Assembly (NCBI GenBank): GCA_905182525.1 | Contig: CAJJBV010000001.1 | Span: 248,001-312,000 of the forward strand | Direction of reading: 5' to 3' | DNA: 64,000 nucleotides | Source of the DNA: Cryomorphaceae bacterium | Lineage (GTDB): Bacteria > Bacteroidota > Bacteroidia > Flavobacteriales_D > Parvicellaceae | Shown: in pieces, positions 12,928 through 64,000 of the stretch | Numbering within the stretch: the stretch's first letter is position 1 | Layout: every line of letters starts with the position of its first letter | Program-made: the position numbers and the translations under genes | Notes under the pieces: generated by a model | The model's input: only the letters and a program-made list of their open reading frames with translations | Database searches by the model: none | What the model was told of the DNA's origin: nothing

Positions 12928-15900
12928 TTAAAATTTAATATTGACTCCCCCCATTATGGTTCTTGCTTGTGGGTAAAACCCATTATCTACACCACCGCTT
13001 AAAGCCCCGCCACCAATATCAGGATCATAACCCATATATTTTGTGAATGTAAATAAATTGTTTGCAGCTAAATAAAATCTCACATAGTTAGTTTGAAACT
13101 TTTTACAAAATTCTTTTGGTAAAACATAGCCAATTTGTATATTTCTAACTCTTAAAAAGGAACCATTTTCAACAAAAAAATCTGAAAAAACTCCATTTCT
13201 GTTTGACGCAGTTGTGTAAATAGGAACTTCGTTAGATGGATTATCCACTGTCCATCTATCTAAGACATAGTTTAGTTGATTAGCATATGGCTGTTGCCTT
13301 TCGTAATTTCTAATGATTTTTTGTCCAACAGCAGCATATAAATTAGCTGAAATATCAAAACCATATAAATTAAATCCTAAAACAGTACCAAACATAAATT
13401 TAGGTAACGGAGAACCAAGATTACTTTTATCGCTATTATCATTAAAATTAATTTTCCCATCACCATCTTGATCGACAAATATTAAATCGCCTACTTGTGC
13501 ACCATCTTGAATAATATTTGAATTATCAATTTGAGTTTGGTTTTGGTATATTCCATTAGTTTGATAACCAAAGAAATAACCAATTGGAAATCCAGCTTCA
13601 AACCTTGTAGCAGTATTTCCTCCAACACCAAAACTAGCACCAGGAATAAAATCAATACCATCAGGAACAGATGTTACTTCATTCTTAAGATAAGTAAAAT
13701 TCAAATTCACATTAACTCCAATAGGATTATTGGGATTCGTTGCATAACCAAACTCAAACTCAAAACCTTTATTAGAAACATTACCAGCATTGACGATAGG
13801 TGGATAACCCCCAGGTCCATATGATCCTATTAAAGCAGGATACATTAGGGCTAAAAAGTAAATCATTTGTATTCTTTATAAAATAATTAGCAGTAATATC
13901 AAAAGAATTAAATAATTGTAAATCAACCCCAATATTTAATTGTCTGGTAGTTTCCCATTTCAAGTCTGGATTAGCGGCAGTTCCAATTGCGACACCAGCA
14001 GTAATTATATCATCAAAGACATAAACACCTTCTCCATTTAAAAGTGCTCTATATGCAAAGTTAGCAATTTGATCATTTCCAGAAATACCATAACTGGTTC
14101 TTAACTTTAAAAAAGTAATTGGCTTAAAATTTAAAAAACTTTCTTCAGAAACTATCCAGGCTCCAGAAAAAGAAGGGAAATAACCATAACGGCTGTTAGG
14201 TCCAAATTTACTTGAGCCATCTCTTCTAATTACCCCAGAAAAAATATATTTAAACTTGTAGCTATATTCTCCTCTTAAAAAAGCAGATAGAAGTCTCTCT
14301 TCAAACTCATAAGAGCCTGTATTGTTTTGATTAAACTGTCCAGGGGATTGACTTGCAGAAATATCGGCATAATCAATTGAATTATTTGGAATGTTAAAAC
14401 CAGTTCCATTTAAAACGTCACCTTTTCTTCTAAAAACTGATGCCTCCTAAAGTAGATTTTATATTATGATCATTAATATTTAAATTATAATTTAAATAAC
14501 TTTCATAATTTAAATCTAAATAAGTAGCTCTTTGCTCTGAAACACTAGCTCCTCTTTCAACAAGAACACTATCATAAGAATCTGAATTTTGATTGTACTG
14601 AAAGCCATTAAAAACCATAACAGGGTCAAGATTAGCATTTAAAGCTGAGTTTGCATATTTTCCTGAGCCATACCAGGCTAAAGGGTTAAATGTTTTACCA
14701 TCAACAATTGCATAATTATAGCTTAGTCTATTAGTAAAAGATAAATTGTCAAGTATTTTAACTTCAAACTCTTGTTTACCTACTAATTTATTAGTAAAAG
14801 ATCTATTATAAGTATTTTCAATTTGAGCAACAGGATTAATAATATCACTAACCTCATCTAAATATTCATAATTACCATCTGGAGAATGAATATTTCTTGT
14901 TGGGAAAGCATTAATAGTATTATATAGAACCGAGCCAATACCATTTTCGGCAAGTACACTTCTTTGCTCGTGAGTATATAAAAATACGCTTGTTAATGTA
15001 AGTTTTTTTGTTAGTGAATTAACTAAATTTACTCTAGCATTATACCTTTCAAAATTAGATTTTTTACCTCCTACAATTCCATCTTGAGAAAAATAATTTC
15101 CTCCTATTGAATAAGAAGAGTTTTTTCCTCCTCCAGTTACACCAATATTAAAACTTTGAACAGGTGCATCCTGAAAAATTGAATCTTGCCAATTAGAACC
15201 TACTTTTAAGTCTGTATTATTAAAAATTGGTTGACCTCCTCCTCTTATAAACATTTCATTTTTGATTAAAGCATATTCACCTGCATTTAAAAGATTAAGT
15301 TTTTTAGTTGTGCTTTGCATCCCATAATAAGAACCTACTTCGAATTTAGGCTTAGATCCCTTTTTTCCCTTTTTGGTTTCTATAATAATTACGCCATTGG
15401 CAGCTCTAACTCCATATATACCAGCAGTAGCATCTTTTAAAACATTTATTGATTCAATATCACCAGGATTTAAAGCATTTAGACCCTGAGCATCGTATAC
15501 CACACCATCTACTAAAATTAAAGGATTATTATTACCTGAAGTTGACAACCCTCTTATTCTTATGTTTGAAGTTCCACCTGGTGAACCAGAATTTGTACTA
15601 ATTGTAACACCAGAAACTTGGCCCTGTAAAGCCTGATCCATTCTTGGAATATTTAATCTTTCAATACTTTCACCTTTAACTTGAACTGTAGCTCCTGTCA
15701 ATTCCTTTACTCTCGATGTTCCATACCCAACAACAACAACTTCGTCTAAATTTTCAGATGAGGGCTTAAGTTGAATATCTATATTAGTTTTATCATTTAC
15801 TGTAACAGATTGACTTTTATAACCAATAAAGGAAAAAACTAATATATTTAGTTGTTTTGTACACTAATTGAGTATCTACCATCTAAAGTCTGTAGTAGCA

Positions 15901-55069: not shown

Positions 55070-55148
55070 CAAAAATTTTGTTAAACATTATTTTTATTTT
55101 AAGTTTATCAAAATTTGTTAAAATATCCTCCAAAAATTGTTAAAAATG
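55070..55148 (+). promoter_or_regulatory. Three near-identical direct repeats before the giant surface-protein gene
   Basis: CAAAAATTTTGTTAAA at 55070, CAAAATTTGTTAAAA at 55109 and CAAAAATTGTTAAAA at 55131, the last reaching the ATG at 55146. Starts are 39 and 22 bases apart. May be regulator or promoter sites; low complexity makes chance possible. Confidence 0.35.
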
Positions 55149-58100
55149 AAAAAATTTATACCCTTTGTTTTATCGCTAATAGTAGCAACTAATTTTTATT
55201 CTCAAACTTTATATTGTACATCTGGTGGGCCAGCAAACACTACGGATTCTAATGTAGAAAGTGTTGATTTAACTGGATCTAATTCAACAAGTATTGCATT
55301 TACAGGATGTCCAGGTGTTACTGGTGTTTCTCAAGACACCTCCCTTTCTGTAGATTTAATTGGGGATTCATCATACACTATAGATGTTCAATTTGGAACA
55401 TGTGGTGGTAGTTACTTTGGATATGGATCTGTTTGGATAGACTGGGATGAAGACAAAACTTTTGAAGCATCCGAAGTAATTGGCACATGGGATGGCACAC
55501 CAGGTCCAGCAAATGCAATTTCTTCTTTTACATTTACTGTACCATTATTTGCCATGAATGGCCAAACAAGAATTAGAGTAATGCAATGGGAAGATTGGCC
55601 TGTTGGTAGCGCTTCTACGCCACTAGACCCATGTGGATCATATTTATATGGTTCTGTAAACGATTTTACAGTAAATATTTCTGGAGCTTTTACTCCAACT
55701 TGTCCTAAACCAACTAATTTAACAGCAAGTAATATAACGTCAAACTCAGCTGATCTTTCTTGGACAGCAGGAGGAACTGAAACTTCATGGAATATAGAAT
55801 ACTCTTTTGCTGGTTTTACTCAAGGCACAGGTAGTCTAACCACAATTTCCGTTACTAACCCTACTATAACTGGTCTTAATTCTGGTTCTAATTATCAATA
55901 TTATGTACAGGCTATTTGTAGTACTAATGATATTAGCGTTTGGTCTGGTCCTTATACATTTACAACACCATGTTCTAATTCTGTTCCACCTACATTAGAA
56001 AACTTCGACTCAGGATTTCCAGTTTGTTGGTCTCAGGACCAAACCGATGATTTTGATTGGACTCTAGGTTCAAATGGAACTCCATCAGCACCAACTGGCC
56101 CGTCTGATGATGTAACTGGTGGTGGTAATTATATGTTTATAGAAACATCTCTTCCAAGAACAACTGGAGATTCTGCCTTACTAGTTTCTGAAAATTATGA
56201 TTTATCTAGTTTAACTAGTCCTCAAATAACTTTTTATTCTCATATGTTTGGTGCTTCAATTGGTGAATTATCTGTTTGGATTACAGATGCTTCTGGAATA
56301 GCTACTCGAGTTTTTGTTAAAAACGGTGACCAAGGAGACCAATGGAATGAAGAAATTGTATCACTATCTAACTATTCAGGAATCGTTCAATTTACCATTT
56401 TGGGTGTAGTTAGTGATAATGGTTCTGGAACATCTTTTTGGGGAGATATAGCAATAGATAATTTTGAAGTTATCGAAGCTCCTACATGTCCTAAACCATT
56501 AAGTAACTTTTTTAGTCTTTCTAATATATTTGCAACAAATGGAGACTTATCGTGGTTAACAGCTGGAAATGAATCTTTATGGGAAGTTCAATGGGGGGCT
56601 AATGGTTTTCCATTGGGAAATGGTTTTATAGATACTACCTCTTCAAATCAAAATTTCTCATTGACTAACCTTTTACCATCAACTTCTCATGATGTTTATG
56701 TTAGAGCAATTTGCGGAGTTGGCGATACTAGTCTTTGGTCTCAAGCTGTTACATTTACTACTCCATGTTTAGCATTAACTCCACCTCAAATTGAAGATTT
56801 TTCTACTGGGTGCTTTACCAACAATATGTTGGTCTCAAGCTGGAAATGGAACTCCATCAACTGGTCCAACACAATTTGGCACTAGTGGTTGGACTACTGA
56901 CGGATTTCAAAATGTAGGTACTACTGGTGCTGCTAGATGCAATTTATTTACTACTGGAGACAATGAATGGCTTATTTCTCCTCAATACGATTTTTCTACT
57001 GGCGGTCCTTATCAAATTGAGTTTGATTTTGGAGTATTTCCAGCAAATGGAACATCACCTGGAACTTTAGGTTCTGATGACAGAGTTGAAGTATTAATAA
57101 CAAGAGACGGTGGAGCATCTTGGAGTGTTATAAGAAATTTTAATAACAATTATGTCACTTCTTTAGGCGGTAGTCATGAAATTGTTGGCCTTCCAAACGA
57201 TAGTGGAACAGTTCAATTTGCATTCTGGGCATCTGAAGGTTCTATAAGTGATCTAGTAAGTAGCGATGTAATGCTTGATAATTTTGAAATTATAAATATG
57301 CCTAGTTGTCCAGAGATATCAACTTTACTATTAAATAATGTAAGCTGATAGCTCTGTTGATCTTTCTTGGTTTATAGTTGGATCAGAAACATCATGGAAT
57401 ATTCAATATGGCCAACCCGGATTTACTATTGGTACAGGTTCTAATTTAGTATCTAGTTCAAATACATATACTTTAACTAATTTAAATTCTGCAAATAATT
57501 ATGATGTTTATGTTCAAGCAATATGTTCTCCTACTGAGGTTAGCTTGTGGGTTGGGCCATTAAATTTTACTACTCTTGAAGTTTGTCCTAGCCCAACTAA
57601 TTTGTCTGATAGTAACACTACTGCAAATAGTGCTGATTTATATTGGACAGTGGGTGGTAGTGAAACAAGCTTGGGTAATAGAATATGGAACTTTCAGGTT
57701 TTTCCCAAGGAAGTGGAACTGTTGTTTCTGCAACAACTAATCCATATGTTTTAACAGGATTAGTTTCTTCTACAGATTACGACTACTATTTAAGAGCTGA
57801 TTGCGGAACAGATACTAGTTTTTGGGCAGGTCCCCATTCATTTACAACTGCATTCCAATGTCCTGCAAATGCTGTTTGCGGAACATATAATAGTGGAGAT
57901 ATTCCATCTGATTTCGATTATTTAGCCAATGGTCAAGTATCTTCTTGTCCTGGGACAATTGATGTTGTTATACCAACTGGGTATGTTCTTGACAGCATAC
58001 AAACAATGTATGATATGACTGCAACTGGTGGTGCTTGGATGAGTGAACAAAGGTCTAGAATATTTGTTCCTTCGATTGGAGCAGGAGAACAAGTTTCAGC

Positions 58101-61100
58101 TTCTGGAACAGGAGGAAGTCTTGCAGGAACTGAGAGTTACTCTAGAATGACTAATTTTTCTTACGGATTTAACGCAACAGATACGGTTTCCATAGAAATG
58201 CATGCTGGAAGAACATGGGGTGGATCAGGATGTAATACTACATTCAATTATGTGGATAATGGATCTTGGATGGTAATTGCTTACTATGGTTTAGCCCCAA
58301 GTTGTCTATCTCCCTATGGAATTGCAATTAGCAATTTAACTTCAACTAGTGCTGATATTTCTTGGGTTGCTCCAAATAATACAGATACTACATATAATTT
58401 ACAATATGGAACTTCTGGGTTTATACCTGGAACAGGAACCTCTTCTATTGTAAATGGAAACACATCATATTCAATAACTGGTTTAATTGGTTCAACTACT
58501 TATGACTTTTATATTCAAACATTATGTAATTCTGGAGACTCAAGTAATTTAATAGGGCCGATTAGTTTCACTACATCGATTCAAGGTCCTGTGGGAGTGA
58601 CTTGTACAACTGGAAATCCTGGGACTATTTTTTCTGAAGATGCAGAAAATGGTCAAGGTGCATGGACAGGAAATTTTGTTACTAGCGGTTTTGGATGGAC
58701 GTTAAATTCTGGACCTACTGGTTCAGTTGGTACAGGTCCAAATGCTGCGCATAGTGGAAGTAATTATTTATACTTCGAAACTTCTGGTGCTAGTTGGCCA
58801 ATGAATGGAGCCATTGTATCTCCAATGATAGATTTATCGAATGTTTCTGGTGATGCAGAACTTTCGTTTTGGATTCATGCCTATGGAGCTGACATAGGAA
58901 CATTAAATGTTGGTGTTAGCAATAGTCCAACTGGAACATTTACAAATGTTTTTTCATCTATTGGACAAATACAAACTTCTAATGCTGATTCTTTTATTAA
59001 TGTTGGAGTTAATCTTGCTAGCTATATTGGACAAAATATATATCTAGAATTCGACTACACATCAGGAACTTCTTTTGCAGGTGACATTGCTATTGATTTA
59101 ATTGAAATAAATACTTGTTTGGGATGTCCTGCTCCTACTGCATTATCTGCCTCAAATTTAACTGCAAATTCTGCTGATCTTTCTTGGACATGCAGGAGGT
59201 ACAGAAACAACTTGGGATTTAGAGTATGATTTTTCTGGGTTTGCACAAGGAAGCGGAACGGTTCTTTCAGTGAGTTCAAATCCTTACAATTTATCAGGTT
59301 TAAATCCTGCTTCCAGTTATGATTATTATCTTAGAGCTGATTGTGGCAATGACTCTAGTGTCTGGGTTGGCCCTTATACGTTTACTACACCATGCGTAAC
59401 TGTTAATGCACCTTATCAACAAAACTTTTCGTCTGGTAATCTACCAAATTGTTGGTCTCAAAGTGTAATAACTGGTGATGGGTGGCGATTTACAGGAACA
59501 CCAGGGTACGATGCAGCAAATAATGGTCGAGCTGGTGGAAGTTTTACTTGGATAGATTTTTCTGGAACTGACCAAGGTACCGTTATGGAAGTTATTCCAG
59601 TTGATGTTTCTAATTCTACAACACCAATTATTGAGTTCGACTATTTTAATTATAATTCTATTAATTCAACACCTGCAAACCTATTATTTGTTGAAGCTTT
59701 TGACGGTGCTAATTGGGTGTTAGTTGATTCTATTCAAGATAATTCCTTACCAGGATGGAATACTTACAATTTCTCATTATCTGGCTTTAGTGTTGCTGGA
59801 GTGGTTTCAGTTAGATTAAGAGGAGAGTCTGGTGGTTCTTCTCAAGATTTTTACAATGATATCTTAGTGGATAATTTATACATCGGTAATCCAGCTACTT
59901 GTCCTCAATTACTTTCCAATTCAATAAATTTGGATTCATCAGGGACAAATTTTGTTAATGTTTCTTGGTCTGGTGGAAATAACGCTAATCAGTGGGAAAT
60001 TGAATATGGTATTACTGGATTTAATTTAGGTAATGGTAGTTCTGTAATATCTATTGATTCTAATTATTCAATTACAGGACTTAATCCTTTAACATCTTAT
60101 GATGGTTATATAAGAGCAATTTGTGGAGCTGGTGATTCAAGCTTATGGATTGGTCCTTTTTCTTTTACTACACTTTTTGAATGTCCTCCTAATGCAGTAT
60201 GTGCGACTTATAATTCTGGAGACATACCTACAGATGACCTTTATTTAGGTCAACCGTTAGGATCATCCACATGTCCAGGTGTCTTAAGTCTAACAATTCC
60301 AACTGGAAATGTTATCGATAGTGTAAGAACTTTCCTAGATATAACTGCTGCAAATGGAGCTTGGATGAGCGAACAAAGGCATAGAATTAAGATTGATGCT
60401 CCTAACGTGCCAATTGGCCCTCTGAGATTTGGTCTAAACGGAAATTCGCTGCATGGAACAGAATCTTATGATTATTCTTTTAATTCAATGTTTGGATACA
60501 ATATTGGAAATACTATTAACTTTGAATTACATGCCGGTAGAACCTGGTCTTCAGGAGGATTCAATGGTTGTTTAACTTATAATAATAAGGTTGATAGCTC
60601 TAGTTGGACTGTTATTGCCTATTATGGCTCACCGCAATCTTGTGCAATAGCTTATAACTTAACTACAAATAATATTTCTAATACTGTTGCTAACTTAAGT
60701 TGGACTTCAGGATCAGTTAATGATTCATTGTGGCATGTTTATTTGGTTCCCGATACTATTCCAGGATCAGCAATTGTTCCGGATTCCAGTCACTTAATAG
60801 TTTCAACTAATGACACATTATCGTTAACTGGTCTTAACCCAAGTTCTGATTATTTGGTATACGTTAGAACAATATGTTCTGCTACTGACTCAAGTATTTT
60901 AGCTAGACCATTATCATTTTTCAACATTTTCTAACTGTCCAAATCCGGGAATTTTATCATTATCAAATAAAACTTTAAATAGTGCTGATATTTCATGGTT
61001 ACCTAATTATTTAAATACATCAGATAAATTTTGAAATTGAATACGGTCTTACTGGATTTACGCCATCAAATGGAGTTATTGATACTACTAGCTTTACAAC

Positions 61101-63386
61101 GTACTCATTAACTGGCTTAGATACTTTGACTAATTATGACTTTTATGTAAGATCTATTTGCGACACAAATAATATTGTTTCAGGACCATTTACATTTACC
61201 ACGTTGGAGTATTGTCCTGAATCCAGATAGTTTGATTATCTCAAATATTACTACCAATTCTGCAGATTTTAATTGGGTAGCTGGTGGGTGAAAATGAATG
61301 GAATGTTGAGTACGGACCTTCTGGATATCCTTTTGGATCGGGAACTTTAGACACAACTTATGTTACAAACTACTCAATTACCAATATACCTACATCTGGT
61401 GGTGGTACTAGTTATGACTTTTACTTAAGAGGTCAATGTTCTGTAGATGGTAGCGTTTGGACTGGACCTTTTACATTCACAACTTTACCTACATGTACTA
61501 GCCCAGACAGTTTAAGTGCCTCTAATATAACTGCAAGCTCTGTTGATCTTTCATGGGTTGCTGGATCCTTAGCACAATCGTATAATATAGAGTATGGTCC
61601 TGTTGGATTCCCTACAGGGTTTGGATTTACTGATACATCAAATACAACTTCGTTTACTCTATCTGGATTAAATGCATCTTCTTCATATGAAGCATATGTG
61701 CAAAGTAATTGTGGTGTAGGTGATTCAAGTATATGGATTGGCCCGGTCTCATTTACTACTGGAAATAGTTGTCCAAATCCAGATTCATTAAGTGTTTCTA
61801 ATATAGGAATAACAACTGCTGACCTTTCTTGGATAGCCGGTGGCACAGAAACAGAATGGAATATCGAATATGGACCTGCCGGTTTCCCACAAGGGTCACC
61901 AAATATTCCTAACGTTTACACTAATTTAGTTACAACGAGTACATATACAATAACTGGTCTTTTAGATGGTTTTAATTATGACTTTTATGTTCAAGCTAGT
62001 TGTGGTGCAGGAGATTCAAGTAATTGGATTGGTCCAGTAAGTTTCACAACTATTCCTTTTTGTCAACAGCCAACTTCATTATCAGCAGATAGTATAACCT
62101 CATCTTCTGCTAAATTATCATGGATAGCTGGTGGTACAGAAATCGAATGGAATGTTGAGTATGGAGTTACTGGATTTCCACAAGGAACGGGTTTTGGCGT
62201 CTTAGTTCCTTTTATAAACAATTACAACCTAAATGGATTAAGTGATGCAACAACCTACGATTATTATGTTCAAGCAGTTTGTGGAGTTTCTGATTCTAGT
62301 TTATTTTCAGGTCCATACACATTTACAACCTGCAAGGATTCTGATACTACAACTGTTTCTAGTTGCGTTTCTTACAATTGGAATGGAAATGTTTATAATA
62401 CTTCTGGAACATACGCATATTCTTATTTACCGATTCTGGGATGTGGTGATACAGTAGTTGATATACTTAATTTAACAGTTGGTGGTAATTACTCAACTAT
62501 GGACACAATATTAACTTGTGATTCTTATAGCTGGAATGGTAATAACTATACAACTAGTGGTACATATACAGACTCTATTCAAACAACTTTAGGATGTGAT
62601 AGTATCGTAACATTAATATTAACAATCAACAATTCTCCAATAATTCAAGATAATCAGACTTCTTGTGATAGTGTATATCTATGGAACGGTAATCTGTTAA
62701 ATTTAACAGGTTCGTACCTTGATACTCTTCAGTCAATAAATGGTTGTGATAGTATTGTAAAACTTAATCTTACTTTAAATTATAGCCCATCTAGTTTGAC
62801 TCCACTAGTGATTTGTAAGGGAGATAGTATAAAGTTTGGCGCAATGACCTACTCATTGGCTGGTATCTATACTGATACTTTACTTTCTTCTATAGGTTGT
62901 GATAGTTTAGCTAAACTAGATCTTTCAGTTACAGAAATAACTGTATCAATAGATACATCACAAGCAAATGTAACAGCAAATGTTTCTGGAGGTATAGGAC
63001 CGTATGTTTATTATTGGAGTAATGGTGATTCTAGCTCAACTTTATTTCCAGATTCTGTTGGATTATATCAAATCTTCGTTGTAGATGCTAATGGCTGTGT
63101 CTCAGATACTGCAACCTATAATGCAACATCTGTTGGTATAACATATAATACTAAGGATATTCTTAATGTATATCCTAATCCAAATAATGGCCAATTTATT
63201 ATTTCAAATTCGGAAATAATGAAAGATATCATTATAACAGATTTAAGAGGAAAGAATGTATATACAAACAAAAATTTAAATAGCAATTATTTAAATATTG
63301 AATTAGATTATTTAGATGGTGGAATGTATTTAGTTAATATTATTTCAAAAAATGGAATAATTACAAAAACTGTTATTATTCAGTAA
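55146..63386 (+). CDS. Giant T9SS cell-surface protein with GEVED, ~13 FN3 repeats and MAM-like domains (many frameshifts)
   Basis: ATG at 55146 gives a signal peptide (ATNFYSQ). About 2,740 aa in order: GEVED domain (VWIDWDEDKTFEASEV); FN3 repeats of ~95 aa (consensus CPxPTNLxASNITxxSADLSW ... YDYYVQAxCG ... WxGPxTFTT), 13 countable between ~55690 and 62330; three MAM-like inserts (for example SSLTSPQITFYSHM, GDIAIDNFEV); two copies of an unnamed ~145 aa module; four Cys-rich SYxWNG..GxYxD..GCDSI repeats (62340-62930); an SprB-like unit; and a T9SS sorting domain (VYPNPNNGQFIISN). Frameshifts near 56810, 57345, 57680 (two), 59190, 60915, 61025, 61220 and 61287 are mostly one extra base. Likely adhesin or scaffold on the cell surface. 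Confidence 0.85.
57859..58293 (+). repeat. Unnamed ~145 aa module, copy 1, inside the giant protein
   Basis: Starts CPANAVCGTYNSGDIPSDF and ends VIAYYG. Shares with copy 2: CxTYNSGDIP, CPG...IPTGxVxDS, GAWMSEQRxRI, GTESY, HAGRTW and the final SWxVIAYYG. It replaces an inter-repeat spacing between two FN3 units. No domain name is known to me for it. Confidence 0.75.
60182..60628 (+). repeat. Unnamed ~145 aa module, copy 2, inside the giant protein
   Basis: Starts CPPNAVCATYNSGDIPTDD and ends TVIAYYG. Diverged but clearly homologous to copy 1 over its whole length, sharing GAWMSEQR and ELHAGRTW. Like copy 1, it sits between FN3 repeats, so module and flanking FN3 may have duplicated together. 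Confidence 0.75.
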
Positions 63387-63476: not shown

Positions 63477-64000
63477 TTGAGAGCAATTGAAAAATTAATC
63501 AAAGAGTATGGCGAAAGCCACCAAAATAAGACTAACAAATTAGTTCACTGGCTTTGTGTTCCTGCGATTTTCTTTAGCATCATTGCTTTGCTTTGGTGTA
63601 TTCCATTAGGCCCTTTAGGTTTATTTAAAATAAATGACTTTAAATATATTAATTGGGCAGCCATACCATTGGTTTTAGTATTTATATTCTATAATAAATT
63701 ACCAACTGCAAAAATATCATTTGGAATATTGTTGTTGATTTCAAGTTCATACTATGGTCAAGAAATGAAGGGAACCCAATTGAATTCATTAAAAAACAAT
63801 AAATATTCAGCTATCTGTGGCCCTGTTGGAACAGTTTTATGTAGTTCAGCTTCGTATCAATTGTTAGGAGCTAATATGGGAACAAATAGTGCTACAGTAT
63901 TTCCTGCTCCCTTTGGAAACTATTATAAAACTATTAAAGAACAATATTTATTCAAAGCTTCAGAAATAATTGCAGCTGGATTTACGGGGGGAGAAATTAC
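63477..64000 (+). CDS. DUF962 (Mpo1-like) N-terminus joined in frame to a secreted protein (runs off the right edge)
   Basis: TTG at 63477 gives MRAIEKLIKEYGESHQNKT, then NKLVHWLCVPAIFFSIIALLW and membrane helices, a clear DUF962 start. After LVLVFIFYNKLP (codon ~75) the frame runs on as AKISFGILLLISSSYYGQE, which reads like a Bacteroidota signal peptide missing its MKK. A mature secreted sequence follows (CGPVGTVLCSS, then ASEIIAAGFTGGEI), like T9SS surface proteins. The expected second half of DUF962 (~80 aa) and the start of the secreted gene are both missing. Either an assembly/amplification deletion joined two genes or it is a real fusion. Continues past base 64000. Confidence 0.65.
   Translation, partial: MRAIEKLIKEYGESHQNKTNKLVHWLCVPAIFFSIIALLWCIPLGPLGLFKINDFKYINWAAIPLVLVFIFYNKLPTAKISFGILLLISSSYYGQEMKGTQLNSLKNNKYSAICGPVGTVLCSSASYQLLGANMGTNSATVFPAPFGNYYKTIKEQYLFKASEIIAAGFTGGEI

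Follow-up and report, generated by a model that had tools for sequence, protein, structure and literature searches.

What is the unnamed module that occurs twice in a large adhesin gene of a Cryomorphaceae bacterium, and what might it do for the protein that carries it? The gene lies in a stretch of 64,000 nucleotides (GenBank assembly GCA_905182525.1, contig CAJJBV010000001.1, positions 248,001 to 312,000 of the forward strand), which we call the window and in whose coordinates positions are given here. An earlier note, made from the sequence alone, had described a duplicated module with the blocks GAWMSEQR and HAGRTW lying between FN3 repeats. It recognized no named domain in the module and took the conserved Trp, Glu, Arg and His residues as a hint of a binding or even catalytic site. 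The reading we favor, with about an even chance of being right, is that the module represents an unnamed Bacteroidota jelly-roll family and serves as an exchangeable, non-catalytic accessory module of type IX secretion system (T9SS) proteins, most likely as a predicted binding module.

Two copies of the module in the adhesin

We located both copies on the + strand. Copy 1 (57859-58305; 149 amino acids, CPANAVC...LAPSC) is supported by sequence comparison and an all-beta AlphaFold model, and copy 2 (60182-60643; 154 amino acids, CPPNAVC...SPQSC) by sequence comparison and a weaker model. The copies are approximately 55% identical, with a BLOSUM62 global score of 387; shuffled versions of copy 2 reached at most 13 (n = 300). 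In copy 1, the conserved GAWMSEQR loop (58030-58053) contains Trp62, Glu65, Gln66 and Arg67, and the HAGRTW block (58201-58218) contains His117, Arg120 and Trp122 (module residues are numbered from Phe1 at 57853 in copy 1). Both were assigned by position and conservation. The corresponding blocks of copy 2, assigned by position, are at 60356-60379 and 60530-60547.

Each copy is intact inside one frame segment. The segment with copy 1 (57682-59226, +) contains FN3, the module, FN3 and a MAM / choice-of-anchor-J domain, and that with copy 2 (59162-60931, +) contains FN3 repeats and the module. The described duplication and its place amid FN3 repeats were thus both borne out.

The module matches no named family in the domain libraries searched

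Neither copy matched any family in Pfam-A or NCBIfam (zero families for each copy; hmmscan, E ≤ 10), so the earlier impression of a domain without a name held at hmmscan sensitivity, and this profile search assigned neither copy to a known family. When 22 members of the family were scanned against Pfam, PPC was found in two of them (E = 3.6) and each of five other families in one, the best being DUF4360 (E = 0.0051). Against NCBIfam there were three single-member matches (best E = 0.022). No description of the module was found in the open-access literature searched, motif strings included, and the passages of PMC11982257 consulted contain nothing on the module domain. The family looks new, and of a kind already known.

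The module is an accessory domain of type IX cargo

We found that the module is an accessory domain of T9SS cargo. The adhesin in the window ends in a T9SS type A C-terminal sorting signal (63168-63383, +; TIGR04183, PF18962; residues 630-701 of the segment 61281-63383) that exceeds the curated cut-offs. Module matches were found in 34 open reading frames (ORFs). Sixteen of these parents were scanned with Pfam; they were chosen in part because the C-terminus looked complete, a criterion that favors detection of the signal. A T9SS signal was present at E ≤ 0.001 in 15, of which 14 reached or exceeded the cut-off; the sole parent without one was L116. With NCBIfam, the signal was present in all nine parents given, slightly below the cut-off in L124.

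Companion domains in the parents include FN3, MAM, GEVED, PKD, SprB, Ig_7, BNR_assoc_N and SusE. Two companions are rare: a P domain (once, in L109) and a CotH kinase domain with LTD (once, in L111). The position of the module varies; it lies amid FN3 domains (L015), after a signal peptide-like start (L028-L030) or near the sorting signal (L117). MAM / choice-of-anchor-J and GEVED, which are accessory domains of T9SS proteins, occupy the same architectural place, inserted amid FN3 repeats. However, the module differs from them in that the MAM, GEVED and choice-of-anchor-J profiles of Pfam and NCBIfam, like those of FN3, did not match the module itself in either copy or in the 22 members.

Distribution and history of the family

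A two-sequence profile had matches in 9 of 100 relatives and, at the level of the order, in 18 of 399 genomes; both counts take in the genome of the window itself, a fragment and a doubtful match (L012). A 22-row profile matched 38 of the 395 genomes in a class-level sample, with a distant 13-row group (below) counted in, and a 36-row profile matched 7 of 395 genomes sampled from the phylum. The samples differ and overlap, and these rates are not comparable with one another. Named genomes with the module are those of Schleiferia thermophila, Thermaurantimonas aggregans and an uncultured Flavobacteriales metagenome-assembled genome. Beyond the window's phylum, the search consisted of one scan of genome contigs with strict patterns.

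The alignments were selective. The module alignment A4 leaves out L012 (E = 7e-4, no motif), the fragments L011, L013 and L014, and L004, which is one residue from L003. The distant-group alignment (A5) omits L055 and L057, and neither the class-sample matches that lacked a locus nor the additional matches L068 and L069 were aligned. Two loci, L130 (in the genome of L049) and L129 (in the genome of L055), have module DNA inside yet gave no hmmsearch match with the 36-row profile at E ≤ 10; L049 is itself a row of the profile that missed L130.

No relative of the module was found in viral contigs, annotated phages or plasmids at the sensitivity of those searches, and we rejected a phage origin on these grounds. 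In PHROGs, copy 1 had three weak matches, the strongest of which (phrog_19444, E = 0.0012) was confined to residues 8-56; copy 2 had no match.

The genome that contains the window has two further copies of the module on another contig (C3), one residue apart in sequence and approximately 1.5 kb apart in position. Their DNA is identical at 455 of 456 bases, and the flanks at 143 of 144 bases downstream and 268 of 300 upstream. This pair is a recent tandem duplication. The stretch of C3 in question (L018, 331-13923) seemingly holds two adjacent, frame-broken T9SS adhesin genes, one of which contains both near-identical modules.

The pair in the window appears to have a different history. The 37-row tree placed copy 1 in a cluster with the two C3 copies and one from a same-genus genome (support 99/93), and copy 2 attached just outside that cluster (99/91) on a longer branch (0.86, versus 0.23 for copy 1). 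Copies 1 and 2 are not each other's closest relatives, which corrects the simple picture of a duplicate. Because copy 1 groups with other copies and copy 2 lies outside on a long branch, the pair is old or fast-diverging rather than recently duplicated, with copy 2 apparently the faster evolving or older of the two.

Profile comparison related the module to the distant group of 13 rows (probability 96.7%, E = 3e-10), which places it within a larger superfamily to which we could assign no name. The group (L052-L054, L056, L058-L066) consists of proteins of approximately 780-840 amino acids, mostly without the aromatic-acid-aromatic set described below. Two of these proteins were scanned with Pfam; both terminate in a CHU_C type IX signal, and their module domain has no library name. 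In L033-L036, L047, L049 and L052-L066, the stretch upstream of the module ends like 'FPVVIDP' or 'YPITIDP', suggesting a recurring upstream domain.

The predicted fold is a jelly roll

The structure prediction that the earlier note had proposed for each copy was run with AlphaFold. Copy 1, modeled from six input sequences, was predicted to be an all-beta sandwich (predicted local distance difference test, pLDDT, 77; predicted template modeling score, pTM, 0.71). The model of copy 2 was weaker (pLDDT 67, pTM 0.68). The closest VIA-align match to copy 1 was the furin P domain (Z = 11.0; 125 of 151 residues superposed at 3.2 Å, 10% identity), followed by Kex2 (10.1), Pgp3 (9.9), BcsB (8.8) and an Aeromonas serine protease (8.5). 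Foldseek placed BcsB first (E = 5e-6) and also listed the BC2L-C lectin, CBM15, CBM35 and furin. A jelly-roll fold is well supported by these models.

Among TNF/C1q-like lectins, the BC2L-C N-terminal domain (Z = 8.1 over 125 residues; Foldseek E = 5e-5) and PLTL (Z = 8.4 over 126 residues) have the same jelly roll. However, they are 7% identical to the module with no sequence relation found, and the module, for its part, is a single domain within a long secreted protein. The likeness of the BcsB cellulose synthase subunit concerns its residues 70-210, but the root-mean-square deviation is 3.9 Å, the identity 11%, and a sequence link was not found. Pgp3, viral capsids and 4-1BBL were rejected as relatives, being jelly rolls at 5-10% identity. 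The 50 matches listed in BFVD look generic (C1q-like, tail fiber, capsid and many unnamed). Enzymes are among the structural matches (furin, Kex2, the Aeromonas serine protease, PaL, TYR and PorU); in furin and Kex2, the match falls on the P domain, which is non-catalytic.

Conserved residues appear to form two layers

Across the 36 aligned rows, Pro41 and Cys127 are each present in 36/36 and Cys32 in 34/36 at the aligned column; the exceptions, L034 and L035, have a Cys just upstream instead. We infer a Cys32-Cys127 disulfide. Arg120 is kept in 34/36 and Gln66 in 33/36. Three further positions, Trp/Tyr-62, Glu/Asp-65 and Trp/Tyr-122, form a complete set in 33/36 rows and are wholly missing in the other three (L048, L050 and L051). 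Of the conserved residues that the earlier note had singled out, Trp (or Tyr) 62, Glu65, Arg120 and Trp (or Tyr) 122 therefore stand. His117 does not: it is kept in only 18/36 and is otherwise Arg, Gln, Tyr, Glu or Met.

The distant group, in the register of the profile-profile alignment, keeps the Arg and the Cys in 13/13 rows; aromatic-62 is gone from all 13, aromatic-122 from 12 and the acid from 9. Together, these counts point to two layers of conservation. One is a fold core (the Cys pair, Pro and, in most rows, Arg), and the other is a set of loop residues that tend to be gained or lost jointly.

In the copy 1 model, we assigned residues 44-57 to jelly-roll strand C, 66-72 to D, 111-120 to G and 127-134 to H. 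In jelly-roll topology, the CD and GH loops are at the same end. By this strand order, the loops with residues 58-65 (CD) and 121-126 (GH) would share one end of the sandwich.

A binding module and its alternatives

We suggest that the module is a disulfide-pinned jelly roll whose shape comes nearest to the P domain of proprotein convertases and to jelly rolls of the TNF/C1q-like and lectin types. The aromatic pair (62 and 122) and the acid (65) would lie in two loops at one end of the sandwich beside Arg120, and this loop set would contact a ligand, perhaps a glycan or another extracellular polymer. The FN3 and MAM repeats would keep the module, presumably displayed at the surface, at a distance from the cell.

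Several points weigh against this reading. The meeting of residues 62, 65 and 122 was derived from strand order, not from coordinates, and the conserved aromatics could be a mere hydrophobic plug. The three rows that lack the set represent two lineages only in the tree, and the coupling is thus suggestive; L050 and L051 lose Arg120 along with the set. An Asp remains in 4 of 13 distant rows without aromatic-62, so loss of the set can be partial. The structural leaders of copy 2 are tied (Pgp3 8.4, BcsB 8.2, Kex2 8.0, furin 7.9). Finally, PDB sequence searches did not find a relative of known structure; the weak matches, to galectin-1 (E = 0.052), GspI (0.63) and BACOVA_04980 (1.5), were judged spurious.

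A narrower proposal, which we put forward tentatively, is that the module defines a new T9SS-specific family of Bacteroidota jelly-roll lectins or polymer binders, in which a Trp/Tyr-Glu-Arg-Trp/Tyr site at the end of the sandwich recognizes one class of extracellular glycan. If so, loss of the aromatic set in the sister group would mark a change of ligand.

It is also possible, though less likely, that the module is a passive structural spacer that lengthens or stiffens the FN3/MAM stalk, its conserved residues holding the fold. The protein that bears it is itself a stalk of repeats, and the varied positions of the module in T9SS proteins (L015, L028-L030, L117) fit a spacer. However, a pure spacer would not be expected to retain an aromatic-acid-aromatic loop set that is lost whole in some members while the Cys and Pro residues of the fold remain.

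The module might instead be a divergent true P domain (PF01483) that stabilizes or docks a neighboring protein domain, as P domains stabilize or dock subtilisin-like proteases. The top fold match of copy 1, over nearly the whole domain, speaks for this. That likeness comes from the copy 1 model, because the copy 2 leaders are tied near Z = 8. P domains are frequent in the clade, occurring in 48 of 60 relatives, and one parent ORF (L109) bears both domains. We compared the module with a profile of twelve aligned P domains from the clade; L093, L094 and the other clade P-domain loci beyond the twelve chosen were left out of this alignment (A6). HHalign gave a probability of 1.2% (E = 0.043) in local mode and 2.5% (E = 0.0066) in global mode. 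The global E value is lower than those of the controls, which were 0.5-1 for 8 of 8 column-shuffled profiles and 0.43 for an FN3 profile; a MAM-like control profile was dropped, having too few segments (three, found by pattern). The global alignment pairs GAWMSEQRSRI with the P-domain motif HTxxGDLxIxL and is sensible in its N-terminal half, but the register fails in the C-terminal half.

The remaining evidence speaks against a P domain. PF01483 was not among the families at E ≤ 10 for the 22 members in the Pfam scan, and the P-domain invariant residues His50, Asp55, Asp130 and Gly137 have no clear counterpart in the module, where the aromatic-acid-aromatic set and the Cys pair replace the His/Asp motif. 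No protease domain was found in the 16 parents scanned with Pfam, a weak criterion since bacterial P domains also occur without a protease. The local profile comparison gave no significant homology, sequence profiles do not show the module to be a P domain, and we consider this identity improbable.

An enzyme domain using Glu65, His117 and Arg120 is very improbable: Glu/Asp-65 (33/36) and Arg120 are widely kept, but His117 is not, P domains, Pgp3, BcsB and lectins head the list of fold matches, and the parent L111 has a separate CotH kinase domain, so that catalysis there has its own domain. Of the 'binding or even catalytic site' suggested earlier, binding thus survives by inference, and catalysis is unlikely because half of the rows lack the His.

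Frame changes in the adhesin gene and neighboring genes

As sequenced, the adhesin has no single open frame. Seven stop-to-stop segments, with frames changing, span nearly all of 55122-63383; the first (55122-56882, +) contains a signal peptide-like start, judged by eye, followed by GEVED, FN3 and MAM. The six frame-switch zones contain no run of at least six A/T or at least four G/C, which weakens the simplest form of the idea that the changes are assembly errors. Module-bearing genes on C3 are also frame-split. A TonB-dependent receptor gene on the - strand (about 12931-15800), with a Plug domain in its first piece, is apparently split over three frames; the library scan covered the first piece, and the continuation through two further frames was judged from the frames alone. 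Since these genes seem split as well, base-level assembly errors are the likelier cause, and decay of the adhesin gene alone was rejected. Elsewhere, the module occurs in long open stop-to-stop frames of 3307 (L015, open at the end of the locus), 2579 (Thermaurantimonas) and 2573 (Schleiferia) amino acids. In the gene downstream of the adhesin (63477-63998), a match to Mpo1-like (PF06127) is restricted to residues 2-60, and the remainder may be in another frame.

Implications

Naming the module would let annotators split long 'FN3 domain-containing' proteins. It offers a testable three-residue loop site and a small soluble domain for glycan-binding assays. More broadly, T9SS cargo of Bacteroidota holds modules, unnamed in the libraries, whose ligands decide which particles and polymers the cells stick to.

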